From contig JADGCV010000016.1 in assembly GCA_015228815.1 (NCBI GenBank), forward strand, positions 1 through 64,000: 64,000 nt of DNA. Direction: 5' to 3'. Made by a program: the position numbers and the translations under genes. Shown here piece by piece: positions 191 through 55,010 of the stretch; positions within the stretch are counted from its first letter, which is position 1; the number at the start of each line of letters is the position of its first letter. Origin of the DNA: Magnetococcales bacterium (GTDB taxonomy: Bacteria > Pseudomonadota > Magnetococcia > Magnetococcales > UBA8363). The notes under the pieces were generated by a model. That model saw nothing but the letters and a program-made list of their open reading frames with translations. It had not been told where the DNA came from and ran no database searches.

Positions 191-3100
191 TCAACGGCTG
201 GCGGGGGCGGCGAGGCGAAAGCCCAGATTGACGCCGCGGTAGCCCGCAAGGCGGCCGTCGCGGAAGCCGACCCGGAGGAGGAAAGCCGGGCGGCGCCAGG
301 ACCCGCCCCTCACCCCCAGACGATCACCTTCGGTGATCGTCTGGGGGTCTAACGGCGTGGCGTGGATTGGTTGCTCGTTGTTCGTATCCAGATTCCGGCA
401 CCACTCCCAAACATTACCCAACAGGTCACAATGGCCCAGAGGACCGTCGCCTGCCGGATAAAGCCCCACTGGCGTCGGACGGCCAACGTTCCGACCAAAA
501 TTAGCCAACTCCGGTGTCGGTTCTGTATTTCCCCAAGGATACTTTCCTCCCTGCAAAGGGGTCGCCGCCGTTTCCCATAACTTTTCACAGGGGAGACGTA
601 TGGTTTTTCCCCGTTGTGCGCTCAACCAACGGCAATACGCCATGGCCTCGAACCAGGAAACACCGGTGACGGGCCGGTTGGGATGTTCTGTCTGGGTGTC
701 ACAATCCTCCGGGCTGGTCCATGAATTTTTTTGCCGAATGGTCCAGGCTTTGTTCCACCAGCGCGGTTCTTCATACCCCCCCTGTTCCACGAACTGTTGA
801 AATTCCTGGACCGTGACCAGATATTTTCCCAGCTTCCAACCCGTTCCGGGGACCTCGATCAACTGTTCCCGGTTCAATCTTGGGTCGCCCCCCCGTCCCA
901 GGGCCTCGGCGGCGGTGATGCGGGTTTCGATGGGGACCTTGGCGGCCCCATCCCTGGTAAAGATGGCCATCGCCTGTTCCAGGAGTTCCCGGTATTTTTT
1001 CTCGATGTCCCGGGGTGGAGGGTAGTTCAGCACAAGCGTGGGGGCGAGCAGTCGTCCCATGATCCCGGCGATCCGGGCGTTGTCGGCCAGGGATGGGGAG
1101 GGACCGTGCAGGGTCAATACCCATCCCAGCAACCGGTCCATCGGTCCCTGGCCTCCGTCCAACAGGCATCCCGGAAGCAGGTCGATGGTTTCCCACCATT
1201 GCAGGTTGTCCAGTCGGGGTTTGATCATGGACCATGCCGCTGTCTCTTCCATCCACGACAGGTGCCGGGCCGCCATGAATTCCTGAAAGGTCAAATGCCA
1301 AAACCGGAGGCGCCCCCGTCCGACTTCTTCGATGATGCCACTGTTGAGGCATTCAAAATGAAGCCAGGCCCTCCCTTTGTGGCGGCGTTCTTCCCCGGAC
1401 AATCCGGGAAAGTCGCGTAACATGATGGGATCGATGGCTTTGAGGGCGTCATCCCAATCCCAAACAGCCTGTTTTCTTTTTCCCCTGTCGCCGCCCATCA
1501 TGGCATAGGCCAGCGCGACCATGGCGCGTTCCGCGAATCCATCGTTGAATCCTGCTTTTTCCCGCAAACTTTTCCGGGAGGCGATCAGCCAGCGGATGAC
1601 CGCCATGTAGACCCGGGACCGCCCTTCGGGCAGTTGCCCTTCATTCCAATGGACGACACACAGGCAGGTGAGCATGACCGGGTTGGTGGCCAGACGGCGG
1701 ATGGTGGGGCGGTCGAGGATGGCTTTTCCCAGTTGATCACCATAACGCCCGGCCTCGCCTCCGGGAGGTTCACCGATCGGCAGACCGTAAAAACAGGCGA
1801 TCCATCGATCCAGAAAGTCCTGGATTTCCTCTTGGCCAAAGGGTTCGATCACCCCATGGAAAAAATCCATGCTTCGCATCAGTTCTACCCCAAAGGGGCG
1901 GCTGGTGACCACGATCCGGGTTTTGTCCCAATGGAGGAGGGCATTTTGAACAATGGCGAACACCCGTTCCCGCAAAGGGTCGCTGTCTACCTCATCGAGG
2001 CCATCCAACAGCAGGACGACCTGTCCATCGGTCAATTTTTGTTCCCAATCGTTCCGCCATTCCTGCACGGCATCCGTCGTGCGGTCGAGGAGGTCGAGCA
2101 GACGAAAACGATCATTCGGGCTGGAGGTGGCTTCTTTGGCCAGGAAAAGTGCCAGGTCCGAAAGACGGAGGAGCAGGGGAAGGGGGGGCGGACCGCTCTC
2201 TTCCATCCCCAAAAACCGTTTGCGCCAGGAGGTGCTGTCGGGACATTCCATCCCCAGGGCATCCCGGGCGAGCATGGTGGCGGCCAGTTTCAGAAACGTG
2301 CTCTTGCCCGCCCCCGGTTGTCCTTCGAGGAGCAAAAGTCGGTGTCTGGGAAACAGATCGGCCAGGGACAGGTGGCCTGCCGTGGTGTCGCCGCGGCTGC
2401 GCAGGGTGGTGAACAACCGTTCGATGGGGTAGCGGTTGGCGTGTTGTCCCCGTCCTTCCTTGGAACTGATCCCCTTGATATCGATGTGATCGATCTGGCC
2501 CAGCAGGGAACGCAGCCACGGGGCGATGTCGATGGTTTCCCGAGGGGGGACGACCCCGGGTGTCCAGGCACGGACCGGAATGCCGTCGGGATTTTCAGGT
2601 CCGAAGGAGACATCATGCAGAAACAGGGCCTCGCCGTTGCCGGTCACCTCCCGTTTTCGCGGCCAAAGGCGGATGGTTTTGTCCGGTTGCAGTGTACCCC
2701 AGGCGTACCCCATGAGTCGGGTTTCATTGCGGGTGCCAAACTGTTCCAGACCGAACAGCGACGCCCCCTGGAGGTAGTAACGGGGTTTGCCACCCGAGAC
2801 GGCGATGGTTTCGCTGCGGTTTTTGTGCATGTGACCGTGCAGGCAGGCCAAAAACCGCTCCGGGGTGTAGAGGGTCTCCCGAAACCGTCCCTGGGCCGCT
2901 TCCGACAACCATGCGGGGGGGTGATGCATGAGCAGCAGGGCGGCCCGATCTTCCAGAATGCTCAAGGGGGATTCCCCTCCCGGTCCGGGGGCAAGCAGGG
3001 TGTGCAACTGTTCCGTGGCCACTTCCAACTGTCCCTGGACCGCATCATCCAGTGCCAGCCACGCCGAATTGAGCCCCACCACCGACAGGGGTATTTTTCC

Positions 3101-4537
3101 CGGCAGGTCCAGGTGAACCAGCAGGTCTCCGGGAAAATGGGACGTGGTAAACGCGATGCCGCGTTGTCGCAGGGGCGGCAGGATGGAACGTTCCAGCCAG
3201 TCCTGATAATTTTTAAAAAGGGGTACGAAATAGGTGGCGTCTTTTTCTTTCCAAAGGGTATCCAGCAGGATGGCGATTGCGGGATGATCCCGACCTTTGT
3301 CGAATTCTTTCAAAATGGCATAGGGGAGGGAGGCCATGCCCTTGGGGCGAACCAGGTCATGATTGCCCGGAACGGGGAGAATCAATGGATCGGGATGATC
3401 TGGGGTCCGCAACCATCCTGATAATTCCTTAAGAAAATGATCCAGGAATTGAAATTCCTCGGGTTGCCCCCTCCAGGTCAAATCCCCGGTGATGAAAATT
3501 ACATCGGGAGGCCCTTCGCGGGCGACCTCTTCAAGGATGCTTTTTTTGAATTCCTGATGTATCTGCCACCAAAGAGATCGGCCAGGGGCCCCCATGTGCA
3601 GATCGGACAGGTGCAGCCAGCGCAGGGGGCGATCGGGCGGAACGGATGGCTCGGGAGACAAAAATCTAAACAATTTCTCCAAGTCCATTCCCAGGGCGCT
3701 GTCGGATGGGATATTGAGTTTGTCTTTGTGGAACTCGTTCAGTTCCAGGGAAGGATGGGCATGCAGGAGGAATATTTCGTTGATGTTCAAGGTGGAGGCA
3801 AGGTTTTTCGTGGGTTCGTTGAATTTGATTCTGAGGTCTGCGATCAGGGTATCTTCGGAAGCCATTTTTTCTGGAATGCGGGTCACGACGGGAACCACCC
3901 CGATCAGTTCGGCACCAGGGGGCCGCATGGTGGCGCGGACACCACGCATGATTGATCGGATTCCCTCTATGTTTTCCTCATTGTTGACAAAAAGACATAC
4001 TGCCCGATCCGCCATCAGGGTCAGGACAGCCCCTCCCATTTCCGTGACGCCGGTACGGGCGTCGATCAAAAGAAAGTCAGGGTTATACTGTTTGCGGATG
4101 ATTTCCTTGAGTTCGATAAAGAAGGGGACGCCCCAATGGGCAGGGCCATAAAAAATATCATGCCAGTTCAATCGGGCAAGACGTTGCCAATAGCCGGGAT
4201 CCCGGGGGTTGCCGGCGGCCAGGAGGCGCATGGGGACAAATCCGGGCCACAGCCCCTCATCCTGTTCGATGAAATGGGGTTCCAACACCAGTTCCGGCAA
4301 TCTTTGGCCGGGATTTTTTTGATCTGTGGCAAAATCATGCAACAGATCGACCATGCCTCCGGAAACCTCGTCTTTCATCCTCAGTTTATAGTGCAGACCC
4401 GGTGCCTCCAGGTCGAAGTCGATCAGAAAGGTTTTCTTCCCTTCTCGGGCCAGATATTTTGCCATACTCGCCAGGGCCAGGGTCCGTCCAACCCCCCCTT
4501 TGTATGAATAAAATACGATGGTCTGTAAATTTGCCAT
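191..4537 (-). CDS. ParA-like ATPase / calcineurin-like phosphoesterase / NACHT NTPase / FGE-domain fusion
   Basis: A 1448-residue four-part protein. Residues 1-290 form a ParA/MinD-like ATPase with the deviant Walker A KGGVGRT at 13-19. Residues 304-640 form a calcineurin-like metallophosphoesterase: D312/H314, D352, N392/H393, H538, H567/H569 are all present, so catalysis is plausible. Residues 730-1100 form a NACHT-type STAND NTPase with Walker A GQPGAGKST at 739-747, Walker B LLLDGLDEVD at 842-851, TSR sensor at 878-880, and the winged-helix motif HLTFQEF near 1081-1087. Residues 1222-1448 are an FGE/sulfatase-modifying (C-type-lectin-like) domain with GNVWEW and RGGSW motifs. The order suggests sensing by the FGE tail, NTP-driven switching, and a phosphoesterase output; that is inference. 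It is last in a cassette with two unknown genes (4556-6039). Its tail looks DGR-diversified (see 209-310). The start is 18 bases after the preceding gene. Confidence 0.9.
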   Translation of the reverse strand: MANLQTIVFYSYKGGVGRTLALASMAKYLAREGKKTFLIDFDLEAPGLHYKLRMKDEVSGGMVDLLHDFATDQKNPGQRLPELVLEPHFIEQDEGLWPGFVPMRLLAAGNPRDPGYWQRLARLNWHDIFYGPAHWGVPFFIELKEIIRKQYNPDFLLIDARTGVTEMGGAVLTLMADRAVCLFVNNEENIEGIRSIMRGVRATMRPPGAELIGVVPVVTRIPEKMASEDTLIADLRIKFNEPTKNLASTLNINEIFLLHAHPSLELNEFHKDKLNIPSDSALGMDLEKLFRFLSPEPSVPPDRPLRWLHLSDLHMGAPGRSLWWQIHQEFKKSILEEVAREGPPDVIFITGDLTWRGQPEEFQFLDHFLKELSGWLRTPDHPDPLILPVPGNHDLVRPKGMASLPYAILKEFDKGRDHPAIAILLDTLWKEKDATYFVPLFKNYQDWLERSILPPLRQRGIAFTTSHFPGDLLVHLDLPGKIPLSVVGLNSAWLALDDAVQGQLEVATEQLHTLLAPGPGGESPLSILEDRAALLLMHHPPAWLSEAAQGRFRETLYTPERFLACLHGHMHKNRSETIAVSGGKPRYYLQGASLFGLEQFGTRNETRLMGYAWGTLQPDKTIRLWPRKREVTGNGEALFLHDVSFGPENPDGIPVRAWTPGVVPPRETIDIAPWLRSLLGQIDHIDIKGISSKEGRGQHANRYPIERLFTTLRSRGDTTAGHLSLADLFPRHRLLLLEGQPGAGKSTFLKLAATMLARDALGMECPDSTSWRKRFLGMEESGPPPLPLLLRLSDLALFLAKEATSSPNDRFRLLDLLDRTTDAVQEWRNDWEQKLTDGQVVLLLDGLDEVDSDPLRERVFAIVQNALLHWDKTRIVVTSRPFGVELMRSMDFFHGVIEPFGQEEIQDFLDRWIACFYGLPIGEPPGGEAGRYGDQLGKAILDRPTIRRLATNPVMLTCLCVVHWNEGQLPEGRSRVYMAVIRWLIASRKSLREKAGFNDGFAERAMVALAYAMMGGDRGKRKQAVWDWDDALKAIDPIMLRDFPGLSGEERRHKGRAWLHFECLNSGIIEEVGRGRLRFWHLTFQEFMAARHLSWMEETAAWSMIKPRLDNLQWWETIDLLPGCLLDGGQGPMDRLLGWVLTLHGPSPSLADNARIAGIMGRLLAPTLVLNYPPPRDIEKKYRELLEQAMAIFTRDGAAKVPIETRITAAEALGRGGDPRLNREQLIEVPGTGWKLGKYLVTVQEFQQFVEQGGYEEPRWWNKAWTIRQKNSWTSPEDCDTQTEHPNRPVTGVSWFEAMAYCRWLSAQRGKTIRLPCEKLWETAATPLQGGKYPWGNTEPTPELANFGRNVGRPTPVGLYPAGDGPLGHCDLLGNVWEWCRNLDTNNEQPIHATPLDPQTITEGDRLGVRGGSWRRPAFLLRVGFRDGRLAGYRGVNLGFRLAAPASR
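209..310 (-). other. Candidate DGR variable region at the 3' end of the NACHT-FGE gene
   Basis: Codons for residues 1410-1443 run from RGGSW to LGFRLA, the segment that is hypermutated in FGE-fold DGR target proteins. Of the 27 codons 1415-1441, 19 end in C. The residues where DGR templates usually have AAC (1415-1416, 1419-1420, 1425, 1427-1429, 1432-1433, 1435-1436) are all NNC here. Only four adenines occur on the coding strand in those 81 bases. This is what A-to-N mutagenesis of AAC codons would leave. The genome is GC-rich, which weakens the argument. No template repeat or reverse transcriptase lies in the window. Confidence 0.5.
312..348. repeat. Near-perfect 17-bp hairpin inside the coding sequence, just before the variable region
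   Basis: Arms 312-328 and 332-348 are exact reverse complements around a 3-base loop. The hairpin encodes residues 1397-1409 between the GNVWEW and RGGSW motifs, a loop of the FGE fold where insertions are tolerated. An uninterrupted 17-bp stem within a reading frame is unlikely by chance. It may be a palindromic element that inserted in frame, or a structure used during variable-region retrohoming. Confidence 0.8.
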
Positions 4538-44910: not shown

Positions 44911-46245
44911 ATGGAAAAAGACCGGAACGATTCCCGCGGCGCTTCCCCGGTGGGACCGACGGGTGAATCGCTTGTCTTCATGAGGCATCCGGGCCACCGG
45001 CTTCGTTCCGGGGCGGCGATCGTCGCCCGGGCTTCCCTGGGTGAGCGGGAACCGGAATCGCAAGCGGGTTTGTCCTCCGCGATCCCGGCGGCCTCCGGGA
45101 CGGTCCAGGGGGAGGGCGTTCCCAATCAATTCACGGGGCCATCGTTTCGCACCCGAAGGGAACGTTTTCGCTTTGACGGTCACAAGATGATGTACCACCT
45201 GGACCGGGTCATGGCCTGGCAACGTGGCGAGCGTTTCGCCCCGATTCACATCGACATGGGGTTGACGAAATTTTGCAATACCGCCTGCATCTATTGTTAT
45301 GCGGTGGTGCAGAACATGTCGCGGGGGACGATGATCGAGCGGGAGGCCTTGTTGCGTTTCATCGATGATTGCGGACGGTTGGGGGTGCGTTCCATCGGTT
45401 TCATCGGCGATGGCGAACCCACACTCAATCCGGCGGTCTATGATGCCGCGGTCCTGGCCCGTCAACGGGGGGTGGATACCGCGATGGCGACCAATGGCTT
45501 GCTCCTGGACATGGATCGCGCCCATGATTGCCTGCGGGATATGACCTGGATTCGTTTCAATCTGTCCGCCGGCAACCGGGAAGGATTTCAGCGGATTCAC
45601 CAGTCGAAGGGGGACAATCTGGATTTGTTGTCGGAAAAGATTCGTGCATTGGTTGCCCTGCGCAAGGAACATGGATATCCCTGTACCCTGGGTTTGCAAA
45701 TGGTCTTGATCCCGGAAAACTTCGACCAGATTTTGCTGGAGGCAGAATTGGCGGCGGCGTTGGGGGTCGATTATCTGGTGATCAAACAATGCGCCGATTC
45801 GGAATACAAGGAACTCGGCGTCGATTACCGCCGCTATGCCCAGGCGGAACAGGACCTGAAAAAAGCCGAAGCCCTATCGACGCCGGAATATGTGGTCCAG
45901 GTCAAGTGGAACAAGATCAATGCCGCTGACGAAACGTCGCTTTATCATGAAGGGGTGCGCAAATACGACGTGTGCATGGGTACCCCGTTTCTCTCGCAAC
46001 TCTCCGGTAATGGCGATGTCTATCCCTGTGGCCCCTTCTATGGCAAAAAGCGCTTTCTGATCGGAAACATCCACGAACAATCCTACCATGACATCGTCAT
46101 GGGGGATCGGTACTGGGCAGTCCATGAAGACATCGCCACCTGGGTCGATGTCCACAAGGATTGCGCCATCGGCTGTCGTCAGGACTACATCAATAAATTT
46201 CTCTGGGATCTGAACAATCCACCGGAACATGTCAATTTTATTTGA
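44911..46245 (+). CDS. Radical SAM protein with C-terminal cysteine motifs
   Basis: A 444-residue radical SAM enzyme. The cluster motif CNTACIYC gives C122, C126 and C129. The GFIGDGEPTLNP segment binds AdoMet. The C-terminal third has further cysteines (CMGTPF, YPCGPFYG, CAIGC) like the SPASM/twitch auxiliary clusters. An N-terminal extension of about 105 residues is low-complexity. The substrate is not evident; no short peptide gene is adjacent. The ATG at 44911 follows GGAG by 8 bases. Its end overlaps the convergent next gene by 8 bases. Confidence 0.85.
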   Translation: MEKDRNDSRGASPVGPTGESLVFMRHPGHRLRSGAAIVARASLGEREPESQAGLSSAIPAASGTVQGEGVPNQFTGPSFRTRRERFRFDGHKMMYHLDRVMAWQRGERFAPIHIDMGLTKFCNTACIYCYAVVQNMSRGTMIEREALLRFIDDCGRLGVRSIGFIGDGEPTLNPAVYDAAVLARQRGVDTAMATNGLLLDMDRAHDCLRDMTWIRFNLSAGNREGFQRIHQSKGDNLDLLSEKIRALVALRKEHGYPCTLGLQMVLIPENFDQILLEAELAAALGVDYLVIKQCADSEYKELGVDYRRYAQAEQDLKKAEALSTPEYVVQVKWNKINAADETSLYHEGVRKYDVCMGTPFLSQLSGNGDVYPCGPFYGKKRFLIGNIHEQSYHDIVMGDRYWAVHEDIATWVDVHKDCAIGCRQDYINKFLWDLNNPPEHVNFI

Positions 46246-48412
46246 CCCCTGATCTTTTGCAGCAGTCACGGATCCATTGGGCCATGCTTGCGGGCGCTGT
46301 TTCCGCCACGCAGCGACGGGCAACTTTTGCCCATTCGTCTTCGCTCACCAGACCGGCGAATGGACCTTTTCCCGGTTCCGGTGGTTCGGACCAAGGGTTC
46401 CCGGCATACTTTTGATAGACTGAGTCGAGCAGCGCCAAGGCTCCTTTTTCGGTGGCTTCCTTCTGCAAGCCCTGTATGGCCGTGAGCAGCGTTCTCGTCT
46501 CTGTCAGCGTTTCCTCCAGAGAGGGACCACCGGTCTTCTTGCGGGCGGTATGGTAGCGTTCCAGCACAGTGCGCAGAAAGGTTGCCAGCTCCAGCGTTTT
46601 CTCTGCCACCCTTTTGTCGCTGGAAAGAGTTGGCCATTGAATCGCATCTCCCGAGGTACTTGCCGGCGCACAACGACAGACACTTTCCATGACCCGGTCG
46701 GCCATATTCCGCAAGTCTTCCGATGATTGGGGCAGGTCTTTTTCATTCGCTTTGGACGACAGATTGAGTCTCAGTCGCTCTGCGGCCCGCCCCAGGCGCA
46801 GGAGGTCGAGATCCTGGCGCCCCATGGCCTCCTCGTGGCGAACCAGAACGGTCACCATGAGGCTCAGGGCAGGGTCGTTAACGGGAGCCTCAGCCTCCAG
46901 AGCGGCCAACGAGCCCAGGCAGTTGACGGCACAATCGAGTCCATTCAATTGTTGCAGAGCATACTCAAGGTTGTCTCCGCCCAGTTCCAAAGCCCACCAA
47001 AACCCGATTCCTGCCACCGTGGCCTGCATCCATTCGATTTCCGACGCATTGCCGATACGGGAATAATTGATGGAGGCATTGAAGAAGGATGCCGTGATGT
47101 CATCATAATCGTCCACATTGACCAGGGCCGGGCGCACCAAGCCCGATAATATCGAGAGAAACCCTAACCGGTCATGTTTGCTTTGGGAGACGCAACCAGA
47201 AAGCCTCCCGGAACAGTTCAACCACGCAGCGGAGTTGTTCAGCATCCTGGAAACGGTTTCAGCCACTTCGCCACCAGGGTTATCGGTCCCGAACAAGGTC
47301 TGCATGACCTGGCTCAGTGATTCAATGTTGGCGATGCTGCGACGTGTGGCAAGAACGACCGAGGTCGAATGCAGCGTGTTCAACATGGCCAACGTGTCTT
47401 CTTCAAGGAGGCTATCCTTGCCGCGGGCAACAGTGGCCAATCTTCCACACAGATTGTTGAGCTGAACGTGAATGGCATGACGGCACCAGCCATCTTCCAG
47501 TTTCAGCCCGGGGATGCGTGTGCGCGCATCTTCTGATTTTACCATGCCGGAGAGAAGTTCGTGGTAGTAGTACCCTCCTTCCATGACCGCGGATTCCGAG
47601 CGGCTGAACACGTCGCCAAAGCTGCCCCATGTGGACAGCAGACCGGCATCCCATTCCGACGCCGGGACCTTCATCAGCCAGGTGCGCAAACCGGACAGGA
47701 TCTTCACGACCAACGGCTCATCAAAAGGAGCACGAAACTGGACAAGCGTCACCAAGACAAGATCCAGCCGTCGTTCCGTGGATCCCACGTCGTCCCGTTC
47801 CCATCGGTCCAGGGTATCGGCGATTGGGCCTTGCAACAGATTGACCATTTGAGACCAATTACCCTTCATCTGGGAGATGGCCATTCCAACCCGCAACATT
47901 ACTTCCTCGGGGGTGCCTAAAAAGCCTTGGCCAGGAGAGGACGTCCTGGAGGTTGGGCTGTCCTGACGATCTTTAGCGACACTCCTGGGCTCACGAGGAC
48001 GGAGATCGTCCTCAGGCAGGTTTTCAGCATCGGATAGACTGTCGTCGCTTGCCGGAGTCTCATCTCCAAGAAATTGGTGGACATCAAATCGGGATGTAAT
48101 GGCTTGAATAAATTGCTCCATGCCGTCGGACCATTCCTGTGCATCGTTGGGATTTGTCTCGGGCGGATTGGCAAGTGTCCATATCTCCATTAAGTAGTTC
48201 TTCAGGTCAGGTTTGCGATAAACGCTTTGTTTCTGATCTTTGCCAACGCCTATTTTGCTGTCGGGGATCTCCTTGCTGGTGATACCCTTATCGATTTCGG
48301 GGGGGTCTGCGGGGATTGCGGACATATGGAACCAATCGGTGTCGTTGGTGATACCCTTGCCGATTGATGGCACATTCTCTGCCATGTCTTGCTCCAGTGG
48401 GTTAGAGTTCAA
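46238..48412 (-). CDS. Hypothetical 724-residue protein coupled to a KAP NTPase
   Basis: I do not recognise this protein. It has an acidic, Ser/Pro-rich N-terminal 165 residues that look disordered, then a long helical body with no membrane spans and no clear catalytic motif. Its ATG overlaps the stop of the KAP gene, so the two are made together. A large soluble helical partner beside a membrane KAP NTPase could be the substrate-recognising or effector half of a conflict system. Two short convergent overlaps suggest that the pair was inserted compactly. Confidence 0.75.
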   Translation of the reverse strand: MNSNPLEQDMAENVPSIGKGITNDTDWFHMSAIPADPPEIDKGITSKEIPDSKIGVGKDQKQSVYRKPDLKNYLMEIWTLANPPETNPNDAQEWSDGMEQFIQAITSRFDVHQFLGDETPASDDSLSDAENLPEDDLRPREPRSVAKDRQDSPTSRTSSPGQGFLGTPEEVMLRVGMAISQMKGNWSQMVNLLQGPIADTLDRWERDDVGSTERRLDLVLVTLVQFRAPFDEPLVVKILSGLRTWLMKVPASEWDAGLLSTWGSFGDVFSRSESAVMEGGYYYHELLSGMVKSEDARTRIPGLKLEDGWCRHAIHVQLNNLCGRLATVARGKDSLLEEDTLAMLNTLHSTSVVLATRRSIANIESLSQVMQTLFGTDNPGGEVAETVSRMLNNSAAWLNCSGRLSGCVSQSKHDRLGFLSILSGLVRPALVNVDDYDDITASFFNASINYSRIGNASEIEWMQATVAGIGFWWALELGGDNLEYALQQLNGLDCAVNCLGSLAALEAEAPVNDPALSLMVTVLVRHEEAMGRQDLDLLRLGRAAERLRLNLSSKANEKDLPQSSEDLRNMADRVMESVCRCAPASTSGDAIQWPTLSSDKRVAEKTLELATFLRTVLERYHTARKKTGGPSLEETLTETRTLLTAIQGLQKEATEKGALALLDSVYQKYAGNPWSEPPEPGKGPFAGLVSEDEWAKVARRCVAETAPASMAQWIRDCCKRSGVK

Positions 48413-50025
48413 GAATTTGCCCTTCCCAGCATCGCTGCTCGGCTGATGCTCAGACGCACGGTTGCCCGGAATAGACGCCTCGCTTCCTTTTCGCTTGGAG
48501 GTACTGAATCAGACATGAGGGAGAGAAAGCGAAACAACTCTCCCTTCAGTGTTCGTGACTGGATGTGATGAATATTACGCCCAGATTTTTTGAAAAGAGC
48601 CTTGAACATGTCGTCGGGTTCCAACCACTGTTGTTTGTAGTGGGGACTGAATTTTTTGGCGATGGCGTTCAGATCCGGAATGGTGTCTACGAAGGCTGAC
48701 AGATCGGAGTAGTTCAGGCTGGGGACTTCCATTCGTTCCGAAAGATATTTTTCATAGAAGGCATGGTGCAACCGTTCCAGGCGATTTCCTCCACGACAAA
48801 GGATCTCTGCATAATGTTCGTCAAGCGTCTGGAACAAACCATTCATTTTAGAATGCCCACCCTTGTCTTCTTCTTTGCCAGTTTCCGGTTTGGTATCATG
48901 GGCTCCTGTTGGAGCGGAACTCCGAAAAATATTGGACGTCAGTTCTTTACAGGCTGCCTCGTTCTTGGGGTCTTCATCCGGCGGGCCGTTTTTGAGTCGC
49001 TCATTCAGCAGCACGGCATACATGGACGACTGGATATCTTCAAGCTGATGGTCAAGAAGAGGATTGAAGGCTTTGTAGAAAATCTGCTCTTCGACGTAGG
49101 AAACGATGCAGGTGACACCCTTCAGGTTCAGCGAACGCCGGATCAGGGTGAGGGCGGCCTGGGCCATGGTCGGGGTAGCCCGGTCGATCTCGTCGAACAT
49201 GAACACTGCCGGGGTTGCGGCGAGCAGTCGCTCCAGATCGCTTTGCCAAGGTAGCCGGATACCGGATTGTACATCGACAGAAACATCCTTGATGGACAAC
49301 CGGAATCTGTTGTTGTACAGCCATTTGGGGATCAACAGGGTCAAGGGAAAACTTTTCCAGTTTTTAAGGCCCCTGGGGTGCGCCATAAGCCGTTCCAAAA
49401 CAGCGCGTTGCAAATCTTCTTCGGTTTCGTGGCGCCAAATGTCGATCCATACTGCGATGGGACTTGTTTTTTTCTCAATGCGGTGGCGTATTTGTTCCAT
49501 CAGGAACGACTTTCCGGAACCCCATTGCCCGGAGATGGCAATGATTCGTCCGACGCCTACATGTTCTTGCCGCAGAATGTTGTCGATTCGATCCAGAAAT
49601 ACTTCCTGCGACGGCAATAAACGCACGTCAGAATTTCCATGGCGTGGATAGATAACCTTCCCCAGACGCGCGTAACGTCTCACCAGTACCAGTTTGCCCA
49701 CCAGCCATAACAGCAGGATGAATAGTGGCAGGATGACGTGCCAGGAATTATTCTTGAAATGTTTAATTACTTGGTTCAATTCGAGACCGGAAATATTCCA
49801 TAAATTGTACAATAAATCAATATAGGTTCCTGCTGCGAGTAATAATGATGGGAATAGGAGTATAATAAGAATTGGCCTTGCCCGAGGTATCATGCGGATA
49901 TAGAGGTAGGCAAAGACAACGCAGAAAAGCAGAACCGCAACCAGCACCGGGCTGTCCAGAAAAGACGTCGATCCGGTGTTTTCCGCACATTTTTCAAGTC
50001 CGGATACGCTACATTGAAGATCCAT
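48409..50025 (-). CDS. Membrane-anchored KAP-family P-loop NTPase
   Basis: A 538-residue NTPase. Three hydrophobic segments at about 27-44, 50-67 and 97-114 anchor it to the membrane. The KAP domain follows, with Walker A GQWGSGKS (166-173), the family motif WIDIWRHETEEDL (193-205) and Walker B VFMFDEID (274-281). KAP NTPases are often linked to mobile elements and defence against phage or plasmids. It is the first gene of a two-gene minus-strand operon with its promoter in 50026-50428. Confidence 0.88.
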   Translation of the reverse strand: MDLQCSVSGLEKCAENTGSTSFLDSPVLVAVLLFCVVFAYLYIRMIPRARPILIILLFPSLLLAAGTYIDLLYNLWNISGLELNQVIKHFKNNSWHVILPLFILLLWLVGKLVLVRRYARLGKVIYPRHGNSDVRLLPSQEVFLDRIDNILRQEHVGVGRIIAISGQWGSGKSFLMEQIRHRIEKKTSPIAVWIDIWRHETEEDLQRAVLERLMAHPRGLKNWKSFPLTLLIPKWLYNNRFRLSIKDVSVDVQSGIRLPWQSDLERLLAATPAVFMFDEIDRATPTMAQAALTLIRRSLNLKGVTCIVSYVEEQIFYKAFNPLLDHQLEDIQSSMYAVLLNERLKNGPPDEDPKNEAACKELTSNIFRSSAPTGAHDTKPETGKEEDKGGHSKMNGLFQTLDEHYAEILCRGGNRLERLHHAFYEKYLSERMEVPSLNYSDLSAFVDTIPDLNAIAKKFSPHYKQQWLEPDDMFKALFKKSGRNIHHIQSRTLKGELFRFLSLMSDSVPPSEKEARRLFRATVRLSISRAAMLGRANS

Positions 50026-50984: not shown

Positions 50985-51752
50985 TTATTTCCCGTAGCCT
51001 TCGTCCTGGGAAGACCCCTGGACAAATGGCGGTATCCGTCCGACGAGACGTTCCAACAGAATCAACTCGTCGTCGGTGTGGTTGTGCATCGGCCCTTTTT
51101 CGAGGATCGACGGGCCGGTGGTGGCATCGCGAATGAACCGCGCATCATGATGGAGTGCCTGGATCGATTCGCGAACGCTGGGATCGTTGCGCGCCTGAAG
51201 GGTCGAGGCGCCATAACAGGTGCAAAAATAGGTTCGTCCGGGTTCGTATTCCATGTAAATGCCGGTGCCCCGGATGCCGATGGTGGCATTGGGGGTCTGA
51301 AGGGAACGCAGACCGGGGCTGAACACGGAAAGGACACGCCCCCGTTTCAGGGTATACCCAAGAATGGACCCCGCCGCGGTCGCCGTGGGGGTGACTTGCG
51401 GGGCGGCATCGACGGCGGTTGCCGGGTCGGCGTGCGACTGGGCCAGAGGACGGGACGAAAGAAGCAATTCGGTGTTGTCGTGGATCAAAAGGGCGTCCCC
51501 GCCGACGACAACGGTCATCCAGGTTCCCGCTCCGGTCGTCAGGGTCTTTCCCGGAATCAGCGGCATTCCCGGTTTCAGTGGGATCCCATCCTGGAAGGCG
51601 GTTCCCCGTAATTCGCGAACCCCCTGCGCGACCTCCTGGTTCCAGGTGACGCATCCCGATATCAAGGGAGACATTCCCAATCCCGAAAGGCCCGCGGTCC
51701 AGACCATGCCTTTCAGGAGGAACCTCCGATTCACGTCGCAATCATCGATCAT
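50985..51752 (-). CDS. FecR-domain Tat/lipoprotein
   Basis: A 255-residue exported protein. The N-terminus combines a twin-arginine-like NRRFLLKG with a lipobox-like SPLISGC, and a FecR-type beta domain follows (GAGTWMTVVVGGDALLIHDNTEL, VLSVFSPG, ATIGIRGTGIYMEYEPG). FecR domains sense surface or periplasmic states. It starts 19 bases after the kinase-FGE gene, so the two are probably one operon. Confidence 0.82.
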   Translation of the reverse strand: MIDDCDVNRRFLLKGMVWTAGLSGLGMSPLISGCVTWNQEVAQGVRELRGTAFQDGIPLKPGMPLIPGKTLTTGAGTWMTVVVGGDALLIHDNTELLLSSRPLAQSHADPATAVDAAPQVTPTATAAGSILGYTLKRGRVLSVFSPGLRSLQTPNATIGIRGTGIYMEYEPGRTYFCTCYGASTLQARNDPSVRESIQALHHDARFIRDATTGPSILEKGPMHNHTDDELILLERLVGRIPPFVQGSSQDEGYGK

Positions 51753-51771
51753 AAAGGCCTCGCTCGGGTCA

Positions 51772-53682
51772 TCATTGGATTGTTTCGGTCGTTTTTTCCA
51801 TGACCAGCCGGAATCCCACCATCGGACTGACCAGTTTCGCCGACGCCGCCATGCGGCTGGCACAGCGGCATTCCCGCCACGGACTGCGCCAACAACCGCC
51901 CCGGAGACTGATTTTTTCCCGGGTGTCGGCTCCCCTGGGATTGTCCGCCGGACTGGTCCGATAATAGTGCGGATCGTAACCGTCCGCGGTCCATTCCCAC
52001 ACATTCCCCAGCATGTCGAACAATCCCCAGGAGTTCGCCGCTTTTTCGCGCACGGGATGGGTTTTTTCCGCGGCATTCGTTTTGATCCAGGCATGATCGG
52101 GCAGCGCCTCGGCCCCTCCGGGAAAAGGAAAGGGGGTCCGGGTGCCGGCACGGGCGGCATATTCCCATTCCGCCTCCGTCGGCAGGCGAAAGTTTTTCTT
52201 TCCCTTGGTATATTTGTTCAAACGTTCGAGAAATTTCTGTACCATGTTCCAACTGACCCGTTCCACCGGATACTGTCCGAGTTCGGGAGAAAAAAGCCCC
52301 TTGGGATAATCACCCATGACACGATTCCAGGTCTGCCAGGTCACCGGCGTTCTTCCGAGCCAGAATTCGTTCAGGGTGATCGGGTGCAGTGGCCCTTCAT
52401 CGTCCTTTCGTCCCGATTCTCCCGCCTCCGAACCCATCTGAAACGTTCCCCCGGCGATCCAGACAAATTCAGCCTTGGTCAATCCTTCGAGCACAATCCT
52501 GGGAGAAACGGTTTTTCTTCGAGGTTCCTGGAGGTCACCACTGTTTGGCGCGCCGATGATCGCTTTGGGCGGGACGATTTCCCTGGCGGGTGGCGGAATG
52601 GACCCCGACGGGACAGGCGTGGGCGGCTGTTCCTTGGGAACGGGGGCGACCTCGGCGGTGGCAAATTCGTTGATGGAGGCGATAAAACTGCGCCAACTGC
52701 TTTTTTTCCGTTTGACTTCCGTGGGCTGGGGTTCGTTCAGCGGACCCGTGTTGTTTCGGGCCAACATTTTCTTTGCCGGCGCCGGGAGGGCCATGGGTTC
52801 GATTCCCAGAAGTTTGCGCCACTCCTTGATCGATTGCGGTCGATCGGTCTCCAGGACCTCCAGGGCTTTATCGACCGCGGCGAGAAACTTCGGGCTGTAC
52901 CGTCCCCTGCCCATCTCCACGGCCGCCTTCATGGGGTCCGGATCGTTGCGCAGCCGTGCCGCGATCCGGAGCGCGGCATCGGCCGGTTTTCGTCCGGAAA
53001 TGCACCGGTAGATCACGCCACCCATGGCGTAGATGTCCGACCAGGGACCCTGCCGTTCTCCCGAGGAATCATACTGCTCGAACGGCGAATATCCCAGGCT
53101 CAGCAGGCTGGTCATGTCATCCCCGACCGACTGCCGCGCCGAACCGAAATCAAGAATGACCGGCGAGCCATCCTGTCGAATCAATATGTTGGGCGGTTTG
53201 ATGTCGCGATGAATGAAATTGGCCTGGTGAAGGACCTCAAGACCATCGAGAAGGGGCGGGAGCATTTTTCGCAATTCCTCCTCGGCCAGGGTCTTCTTTC
53301 GTTTGAGAAGGCCATCCATCCCCTCTCCCTCGACATACTCCATCACCATGTAGGCGGTGTTGGCATCGCGAAAAAAACTGACGACCCGGACGATGGCCGG
53401 GTGACGAAAACGGGCGAGGGTTTGCGCCTCCTTGAGGAACCTTTGCAGTCCCCACTCGAATTGATCCTTGCAGGAAGGGGAATTGGGATGAACCTGACGG
53501 CTTTCGGTCCGCGAGGCGAAGGTGCCGGGGAGGTACTCCTTGACAGCGACCAGTTGGTCCTGGTTGGTGTCCCGCCCCAGATAGGTGATGCCGAACCCCC
53601 CTTTGCCAAGAACCTTGAGGATCTCGAACCAGAGGATTTTCGAGCCGGCGGGAAGCGCGTCGGTAAATTGCGTGGAACTCAT
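51772..53682 (-). CDS. Ser/Thr protein kinase fused to an FGE domain
   Basis: A 636-residue protein. Residues 15-290 are a Hanks-type kinase with GKGGFG (26-31), catalytic lysine K48, HRD at 158-160 and DFG at 178-180, so it should be active. A Pro-rich linker (about 300-400) leads to an FGE/sulfatase-modifying domain (402-628) with GNVWEW and RGGCW. The FGE cysteine pair is not in the catalytic register, so the domain is probably a binding module. Its final segment lacks the NNC codon pattern of a DGR target. The ATG at 53682 precedes the kinase domain; 49 upstream residues are unremarkable. Confidence 0.9.
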   Translation of the reverse strand: MSSTQFTDALPAGSKILWFEILKVLGKGGFGITYLGRDTNQDQLVAVKEYLPGTFASRTESRQVHPNSPSCKDQFEWGLQRFLKEAQTLARFRHPAIVRVVSFFRDANTAYMVMEYVEGEGMDGLLKRKKTLAEEELRKMLPPLLDGLEVLHQANFIHRDIKPPNILIRQDGSPVILDFGSARQSVGDDMTSLLSLGYSPFEQYDSSGERQGPWSDIYAMGGVIYRCISGRKPADAALRIAARLRNDPDPMKAAVEMGRGRYSPKFLAAVDKALEVLETDRPQSIKEWRKLLGIEPMALPAPAKKMLARNNTGPLNEPQPTEVKRKKSSWRSFIASINEFATAEVAPVPKEQPPTPVPSGSIPPPAREIVPPKAIIGAPNSGDLQEPRRKTVSPRIVLEGLTKAEFVWIAGGTFQMGSEAGESGRKDDEGPLHPITLNEFWLGRTPVTWQTWNRVMGDYPKGLFSPELGQYPVERVSWNMVQKFLERLNKYTKGKKNFRLPTEAEWEYAARAGTRTPFPFPGGAEALPDHAWIKTNAAEKTHPVREKAANSWGLFDMLGNVWEWTADGYDPHYYRTSPADNPRGADTREKISLRGGCWRSPWRECRCASRMAASAKLVSPMVGFRLVMEKTTETIQ

Positions 53683-53869
53683 GAAACTGGGTCCTGACCT
53701 TCCGGGTTGGCGGGTGCAAATGATCCACCGTTGCCAATACCCGGCAATTTGGGAGATGGCGTCCCCTGCCGAAATACCCTGGACCTTGGCGATGCCCATG
53801 CATCGGTATAACCGATGGCGTCCCGACAAGGCAAGTGACCAATCGGATCGGGTGGGGCGAAGGGGGCGA

Positions 53870-54475
53870 TTATTCCCGTGGCTCGGCGATCAAAGAGCGA
53901 AGAGCGCCTGCCTGGTCCTCAAGTATGTCGGAAGAAAGACCGACCTCCTCCTCCTGGAGGGTGAAGATTTTTCGTTCCTCGACGTGATCGCGGGGATCGA
54001 AGAATTCCTCGGAGGGGTCCGGGTCACCCGGAAGTTCCGGTTCGATCCGCTCGGGATCGGCCAGGTCGGAAAGATCCTGATTGGATTGGAAGGGGTCCAG
54101 TCCCTCTTGGTAGGGATAGGACGCGGGGTACATCTCGTTGGGATCGTTCCGGAACATTCCGAACAGACTCTCCAGGCTGTTGCGGGCAAGGAGTGACAGT
54201 CCGGCCACCAGATAGACGCTTCCCTCCAGGGCGCGAAGTCCAAGGTCTCTTCCTGAAAAACGTTGCCATGATCGTTGCTTGCGTGTGACCGGCAAAGATT
54301 CGCCCTGCCTGGCCGATGACGCGCTCGCCATCGTCTTGCGGACGCGGCGTTCAACCTTCTGGTTGGCCAGAACGGATGGTTTGATATTCCAGGGACGGCT
54401 GCTTCTGGAAGCCAAGGCCGCGGATTCCGAATGTCGCGCGGCGGGTTTTTTCTTCATCCAGGTATCTTGAGCCAT
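53870..54475 (-). CDS. Hypothetical protein upstream of the kinase-FGE gene
   Basis: A 201-residue protein with a basic, disordered N-terminal 75 residues, one moderately hydrophobic stretch (LRALEGSVYLVAGLSLLARNSLESLFGMF) and a strongly acidic C-terminus. I do not recognise it. Same-strand position before the kinase suggests that it could be a substrate or adaptor, but the 187-base gap weakens that. No good ribosome site is seen; M7 at 54457 is an alternative start. Confidence 0.5.
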   Translation of the reverse strand: MAQDTWMKKKPAARHSESAALASRSSRPWNIKPSVLANQKVERRVRKTMASASSARQGESLPVTRKQRSWQRFSGRDLGLRALEGSVYLVAGLSLLARNSLESLFGMFRNDPNEMYPASYPYQEGLDPFQSNQDLSDLADPERIEPELPGDPDPSEEFFDPRDHVEERKIFTLQEEEVGLSSDILEDQAGALRSLIAEPRE

Positions 54476-54587
54476 TTGTATACCATTTCGTTAGACAGAT
54501 GCGTGAACGATCGGGTCTGTGTTATGGTTCCAGTCTGTCTTCGGATCGAGTTTCTTCAACCATTTCGAGTCCAATGGAAAACGCCCC

Positions 54588-55010
54588 ATGCTGCCATCCG
54601 CCCCCCACAGTCCGCGAAATCCGAGTCTCTTTCAGGCCACCCCCAGGGAGGCGTTCGAACTGGCGCGAATACCAGGAACGGTGTTCATCGATATTCGCTC
54701 CGAAATCGAACATTTCTTCGTCGGAAGTCCCCTGGGCGTCGTCAACATTCCCTGGCAGGACGCACCCGACTTTGAAAAAAATCCCGATTTTCTCGCTGCC
54801 GTCGGTCGTATCGCCCGCAAGGACCAAGTCATCCTCTTGATCTGTCGCTCCGGACATCGTTCCATCGATGCCGGCAATGCCTTGATCGAAGCGGGTTTCC
54901 AAAGAGTCTACAATGTCCTCGAAGGGTTCGAGGGCGACCGGGACGAGAATCACCATCGTTCCAGCGTCAATGGTTGGCGTTTCCGGGGGTTGCCGTGGGT
55001 GCAGTGTTGA
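54588..55010 (+). CDS. Cytoplasmic rhodanese-like sulfurtransferase
   Basis: A 140-residue single rhodanese domain. The catalytic cysteine is C86 in LLICRSGHRS, the classic active loop, and DIRSEIEHFFVG and YNVLEGFEGD are the other family motifs. It lacks a signal peptide, unlike the periplasmic rhodanese at 42187. The start is uncertain: 54588 is the ATG nearest the domain, and 54519 is a longer option. The ~400 bases after it (55011-55406) contain no supportable gene. Confidence 0.82.
   Translation: MLPSAPHSPRNPSLFQATPREAFELARIPGTVFIDIRSEIEHFFVGSPLGVVNIPWQDAPDFEKNPDFLAAVGRIARKDQVILLICRSGHRSIDAGNALIEAGFQRVYNVLEGFEGDRDENHHRSSVNGWRFRGLPWVQC

Follow-up and report, generated by a model that had tools for sequence, protein, structure and literature searches.

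A conserved gene pair of Magnetococcia encodes an orphan companion protein and a kinase with a formylglycine-generating-enzyme-fold tail

Introduction

The catalytic cysteines of formylglycine-generating enzymes (FGEs) form a C-x4-C pair. TvpA of Treponema denticola (PDB code 2y3c) is a retroelement-diversified surface protein and acts as a binding protein. Both are relatives of the C-terminal tail of a protein kinase encoded in the stretch of DNA analysed here (the window), 64,000 nucleotides of contig JADGCV010000016.1 from a Magnetococcales bacterium (assembly GCA_015228815.1, 4.2 Mb, 99% complete). The kinase gene is the middle one of three consecutive minus-strand genes at 50985-54475, whose coordinates were confirmed; it is preceded by a gene for a companion protein and followed by one for a putatively exported protein resembling FecR.

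TvpA is the nearest solved relative of the tail in both sequence and fold. The window tail differs from it in being fused to a kinase that has no strongly hydrophobic segment, and in being unmatched by the template repeat of the retroelement in its genome. True FGEs (2q17, 6muj) share the family PF03781 with the tail and align to it significantly, but the C-x4-C pair is absent from the tail. With regard to the kinase domain, PpkA (5hnv, 5x1r) is alike in sequence and fold. PpkA is linked to the type VI secretion system (T6SS), whereas no match to VipB was obtained in 48 genomes of the class to which the magnetococcal kinase belongs. PpkA is described as carrying a vWA tail (PMC1262709), whereas the window kinase has an FGE-fold tail and no vWA match. 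Ser/Thr kinases of chlamydiae that end in a DUF323 (FGE-type) domain have been known since 2005 and show the same kinase-then-FGE order; they are set beside the window kinase by architecture only, and the available part of that source describes no companion for them (PMC1262709). The FecR domain (PF04773) bears a sub-threshold likeness to the FecR-like protein, whose family has the additional motifs CxCYG, HH and HTDxEL. Our literature search returned nothing pairing magnetococci with diversity-generating retroelements or with threonine protein kinases, and nothing on kinases that joins SUMF1 to chlamydial Pkn1. For Hanks kinases of magnetotactic bacteria it led to a ParB review, and for FGE-sulfatase domains in bacterial kinases to two caspase papers.

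Results

The companion (201 aa, 53870-54475, minus strand) and the kinase-FGE protein (636 aa, 51772-53682, minus strand) were found to be inherited together across Magnetococcia. A profile built from 34 companions matched 42 of the 48 class genomes, once in each, and none of the 251 other genomes of the phylum, with at most nine first-look candidates per genome scored among the matches listed. The same 42 genomes hold one kinase ortholog each, defined as the best match of the genome (E 2.5e-126 or better; paralog matches begin at E 1.2e-107). Each of the 42 has the companion gene upstream of the kinase gene on the same contig and strand, with a gap of -2 to 454 bp. With the starts chosen by the script, 5 of 34 loci show overlapping reading frames for the two genes, which points to coupled translation. 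The six genomes without a companion are 57-82% complete and also lack a kinase match at ortholog level; one of them, G009, contains an FGE-only fragment (41% identity) that could be part of a kinase ortholog. Among 80 named loci matching the kinase-FGE protein, the companion is present in four, all from Magnetococcales, while the other Magnetococcales contigs in this set are matched in the FGE part only and have no companion. The companion and the kinase thus form a strictly linked gene pair.

Surroundings were obtained for 38 of the 42 kinase loci, the window included. Neighbourhood clustering of the 37 relatives lost the kinases of L165 and L175, as a longer antisense open reading frame (ORF) was chosen at these loci; the L175 kinase has an internal TGA. 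The window genes were masked by antisense ORFs in the same manner, and the window kinase was added by its coordinates, resulting in 36 aligned rows. At L185 the contig ends, leaving no companion ORF of at least 80 aa, although a companion fragment was found in that genome by the profile search. The smaller kinase alignment (A2, 32 rows) omits L178, L180, L185 and L192. The companion alignment (A1) omits L178, and its rows L161, L164 and L168 started later than the script ORFs.

The kinase-FGE protein matches Pkinase (E 1.1e-38) and FGE-sulfatase (E 1.5e-44), both above the Pfam cut-offs, and the fusion is real. The kinase domain (residues 19-292, 52807-53628, minus strand) has PpkA as its closest solved relative (5hnv, E 1e-57 over residues 7-292), which is also the first-ranked fold match to the kinase model in Foldseek (template modelling score 0.85 on the target). 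All 36 aligned orthologs retain the glycine loop GKGGFG(I/V)TY, VA(I/V)K and DFG, and H158-R159-D160 and T191/S192 of the activation loop are invariant in A2. The best 19-residue hydropathy mean of the protein is 1.04, compared with 1.39 for the companion. Judged by its motifs and its model, this is an intact, soluble Ser/Thr kinase of the PpkA type with every catalytic motif. PADLOC models for defence kinases also match this domain (mad6 at E 4e-50, PD-T4-6 at E 9e-45); these labels were taken as generic kinase matches.

About 110 residues link the two domains, and this linker is disordered in the model and very variable. Within it, the stretch KKSSWRSFIASINEF (residues 326-340, 52663-52707, minus strand) is far less so, with a mean entropy of 0.87 as against 2.38 for the whole linker. 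Its consensus is KKSSWRSFIASxNEF, of which W330 is invariant in 36/36 orthologs. A pattern scan of the fetched loci found this motif, beyond the listed kinase loci, only in pieces holding the same kinase.

The FGE/C-type-lectin domain occupies residues 404-627 (51802-52473, minus strand). By sequence, its solved relatives are TvpA (E 2e-26), PvdO (E 1e-24) and true FGE (about 1e-17), and the folds of TvpA and PvdO were also matched by the tail model. The catalytic pair appears as LRGGSYLCHDSYC in 2q17 in the printed alignment, and the corresponding stretch of the window protein is LRGGCWRSPWRECRC. The only cysteines of this region are C597, C605 and C607 (segment C597-C607, 51862-51894, minus strand), no two of which are spaced five apart. 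When the alignment is anchored on the left, the FGE pair positions correspond to S600 and C605; when it is anchored on the right, as HMMER chose, they correspond to C597 and W602. Under both alignments the pair is absent from the window tail, and the loop is three residues shorter than that of 2q17. C605 is kept in 34/36 orthologs and position 600 is a serine in 27/36 rows. Cysteines at both 600 and 605, which is the FGE spacing, occur in six orthologs, all of genus g15. These sequences (L164, L166, L168, L169, L172 and L184) also show an altered RGSGF context. Their tails are possibly copper-binding variants. Because of these six, the sequence-based reading of the tail as non-catalytic is firm for the window protein and less firm for genus g15.

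The preliminary description of this locus had recognised a Hanks kinase with an FGE-fold tail devoid of the catalytic cysteine pattern, and this agrees with the Pfam matches above cut-off, the structural matches to PpkA and TvpA, and the missing C-x4-C pair. It had named FGE cysteines in catalytic register in a structural alignment as the result that would speak against this; by sequence alignment they were not found in the window protein, and the six g15 orthologs have a C-x4-C at the corresponding place. It had also counted a second FGE-fold protein in the window, which is the product of the gene at 191-4537; the whole genome holds 16 FGE matches.

The companion of the window has no match in NCBIfam, PADLOC, PHROG or Pfam, and its family profile matched nothing in the PDB. 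A Pfam scan of 34 companions returned seven families, each matching a single member (best E 0.001), which were taken as chance, and the one Foldseek match to the companion model (E 8.8) was dismissed as meaningless. The companion is therefore an orphan family, outside the libraries tried. Its charge is dipolar: in the window protein it amounts to +13 before the hydrophobic stretch and -19 after it. The part before this stretch is basic in 35/35 companions and the part after it is acidic in 34/35, the exception, L178, being a companion without the C-terminal hairpin. The hydropathy maximum lies at residues 78-96. In the model, a long central helix (residues 75-109, 54149-54253, minus strand), with a predicted local distance difference test (pLDDT) score of about 93 in its core, and a C-terminal acidic helical hairpin (residues 161-197, 53885-53995, minus strand) have high local confidence, and the rest is disordered. 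The hairpin holds the invariant A1 columns K169, E177, L185, D187, Q188 and L192.

The third gene (50985-51752, minus strand) starts 19 bp past the kinase stop and lies within a longer ORF opening at 52160. Its likeliest start is 51752, since MIDDCDVNRRFLLKG...LISGC combines a twin-arginine pair with a lipobox, and the sequences of relatives point the same way; the product has 255 aa. The twin arginine and lipobox-like signals (R9-C34, 51651-51728, minus strand) were read by eye. By the same means, twin arginines and a cysteine past a hydrophobic stretch were found in 10/11 relatives (L207 being read from a later start), and a canonical box precedes the cysteine of the window protein and of seven of those ten. 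The FecR match of the window protein, which spans its RGT region, has an E value of 0.069 and 14 bits against a Pfam cut-off of 24. Among nine relatives scanned, at most four match FecR at E of 1 or below (L068, L069, L204 and L206, best E 0.0097), none of them above the PF04773 cut-off, and the remaining five have no match. The CxCYG, HH and HTDxEL motifs are kept in all 12 FecR-like proteins compared, including that of the window; lying outside the FecR model, they suggest putative metal or redox ligands.

This gene adjoins the kinase gene in 3 of 34 testable loci, those of the window genome, G003 and G005. The testable loci are 33 with at least 1000 bp downstream together with L156 (936 bp), and four more were too short. 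FecR-like homologs exist in 34 of the 48 class genomes, in other genomes at sites away from the kinase; in the single-contig genome G045, 2.2 Mb separate the two genes (2.39 Mb and 4.59 Mb). The FecR-like gene was thus rejected as a core member by linkage, and it is a lineage-specific neighbour or accessory.

These results modify the remaining proposals of the preliminary description. The 201-residue protein, described there as an acidic unknown, has no library match and is not simply acidic, having a +13 and a -19 half. The exported FecR-domain protein keeps its exported-type N-terminus, as read by eye, but its FecR match is below cut-off and its start had to be corrected to 51752. As for a phospho-signalling unit linking cytoplasm and envelope, the co-occurrence analysis that had been recommended upholds the kinase and companion, with their conserved motifs and adjacency in 42/42 genomes out of 48, but not the envelope link through the FecR-like protein, which is adjacent at 3/34 loci.

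The genome also contains a diversity-generating retroelement whose targets are other FGE-tailed genes. Contig 9 encodes its reverse transcriptase, which bears YMDD and IGNLTSQ motifs, and the template repeat lies directly upstream (L019 7798-7912). Compared with this template, the repeat at L019 6351-6465 is changed at 18/23 adenines and 0/92 other bases, that at L021 7097-7211 (contig 6) at 18/23 adenines and 5/92 others, and the 3' end of the window FGE gene (197-311, minus strand) at 17/23 adenines and 2/92 others. This concentration of changes at template adenines is a signature of adenine-specific mutagenesis. Two more L019 repeats fit the template less well when aligned without gaps, with changes at 13 and 15 of the 92 other bases. 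The window gene at 191-4537 (minus strand) encodes ParA-like, metallophosphatase, NACHT and FGE domains. As its 3' end bears the signature, it is a remote target of the retroelement, on a different contig, and its architecture resembles that of a target reported for Thiohalocapsa (PMC10907252). This gene is probably of more interest than the kinase finding itself.

The 3' end of the kinase-FGE gene has no match to the template L019 7798-7912, and the kinase tail was rejected as a retroelement target on this ground. The nine kinase columns that correspond to variable codons show slightly higher variability than FGE columns drawn at random from the class alignment (7.5% of draws were as high), and among six same-genus sequences 4/9 of them vary, compared with 96/215, so that they are not more variable.

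The retroelement locus itself (L019 6351-11000) contains the reverse transcriptase, the template and several FGE-tailed targets, with the further target on contig 6. One of these targets was recognised by eye as a TIR-FGE-like protein (L019 9163-10530), apparently frameshifted in its repeat. In 16 of the 48 class genomes this reverse transcriptase has relatives at E 1e-15 or better, which may belong to such elements. A second reverse transcriptase gene lies on contig 10 (L020, contig position 107884-108567), near imperfect repeats at L020 9966-10125 and 7501-7660 that show 13 mismatches at A and 22 elsewhere. Together they could represent a second, more diverged retroelement.

With regard to the surroundings of the pair, a rhodanese-domain protein is encoded divergently upstream (54519-55010, plus strand). 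A rhodanese cluster holds this place in 24/41 clustered loci, the copy of the window being masked by an antisense ORF and not counted. In the neighbourhood clustering, the genes downstream of the kinase vary by lineage. In ten loci they include a convergent gene for a short protein that resembles a PilZ domain by eye (cluster 3; for example L182 10170-10547, minus strand). Further along the window (46238-50025, minus strand), a KAP-type NTPase (48409-50025) adjoins a 724-aa protein that has no match in Pfam, NCBIfam, PADLOC or PHROGs; these two genes are possibly a conflict system.

Discussion

We propose that the two genes, companion then kinase-FGE, are the core of a module in which a cytoplasmic kinase is anchored by its companion and carries a pseudo-enzyme tail as its sensor, with the FecR-like protein as an accessory. 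We hold this reading, taken as a whole, about evenly balanced between right and wrong. The FGE-fold tail would most likely bind a ligand or a protein and, as a sensor, control the kinase. The companion would be located at the inner membrane and would recruit the kinase through the KKSSWRSFIASxNEF motif of the linker, and its serine-bearing basic tail is probably a substrate for phosphorylation. In the lineage of the window, the gene for the FecR-like protein, a putative lipoprotein of the twin-arginine translocation (Tat) type, downstream and in the same orientation, is probably co-transcribed with the pair.

Several points weigh against this proposal. The contact between companion and kinase, the ligand and the substrate are all predictions. 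The companion model has a mean pLDDT of 67 and a predicted template modelling (pTM) score of 0.27, so that its confidence is local only. Its helix is moderately hydrophobic (best 19-residue mean 1.39; 0.92 to 2.27 among 35 family members) and may therefore not cross the membrane but lie at its periphery or inside a complex. If the companion did span the membrane with its basic end inside, the hairpin would come to lie in the periplasm, beyond the reach of the kinase. Finally, the linker motif has diverged in some orthologs, an example being SWPGLLNTL in L192.

Other explanations place the weight elsewhere. The FecR-like putative lipoprotein might belong to an obligate trio with the kinase and the companion, bridging cytoplasm and envelope, and in three genomes of the same genus its gene does follow the kinase closely and in the same direction, with an N-terminus whose twin arginines and cysteine recur in most relatives. 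The scarcity of this linkage and the homologs located elsewhere make such a trio improbable, as does G001, where the lipoprotein gene is on another contig although the contig of the kinase runs about 3.7 kb further. We give about the same low credence to a role in anti-phage or conflict signalling, in which the FGE tail would detect an invader and the kinase would set off the response, as has been suggested for conflict proteins with an FGE tail. The PADLOC matches are in keeping with it, as is the presence in the genome of further FGE-tailed genes that are targets of a retroelement, of a type ascribed to conflict systems (PMC10907252); FGE-type domains are also listed as parts of conflict systems (PMC7159879). 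However, the PADLOC models cover the kinase domain alone, as generic kinase models do, and a single ortholog per genome in a pair conserved throughout the class is unlike the patchy distribution of defence genes. Moreover, the kinase gene is no retroelement target, and its matching columns lack clear hypervariability.

An enzymatic role of the FGE domain under the control of the kinase, in formylglycine formation or another oxidation, appears less likely still. The retention of C605, the cysteine pair in the six orthologs of one genus and the significant matches to true FGE structures would fit such an activity, but the serine at 600 does not, nor does the gap placement of HMMER, which sets W602 at the second cysteine; three loop residues are missing with respect to 2q17, and the nearest structure, TvpA, is that of a binding protein. 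A regulator of secretion, equivalent to the T6SS-associated PpkA, is the least credible of these explanations and borders on the negligible. It draws on PpkA being nearest to the kinase domain in sequence and fold, and it was rejected on VipB alone: this core T6SS protein, the sole T6SS family searched, was absent from 48/48 genomes, while the E. coli control was positive.

The companion-anchored kinase with a sensor tail thus remains our preferred reading, and a bolder version of it can be formulated, which we consider possible but rather doubtful. The pair would then be a class-defining module of Magnetococcia, in which the non-catalytic FGE tail senses a cytoplasmic ligand and the orphan dipolar anchor, by way of the 15-residue motif, both controls the kinase and is acted on by it. 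If this is true, it would be a kinase-partner system new to description, possibly essential to magnetotactic cocci. One genome holds both FGE tails hypermutated by a retroelement and one, fused to a kinase, that is not. FGE-tailed kinases have been known since 2005 with no conserved partner described in the accessible part of that report (PMC1262709), whereas here a partner accompanies the kinase in each of 42 genomes. This pairing yields a specific contact to probe, between the linker motif and the hairpin, and a likely substrate.

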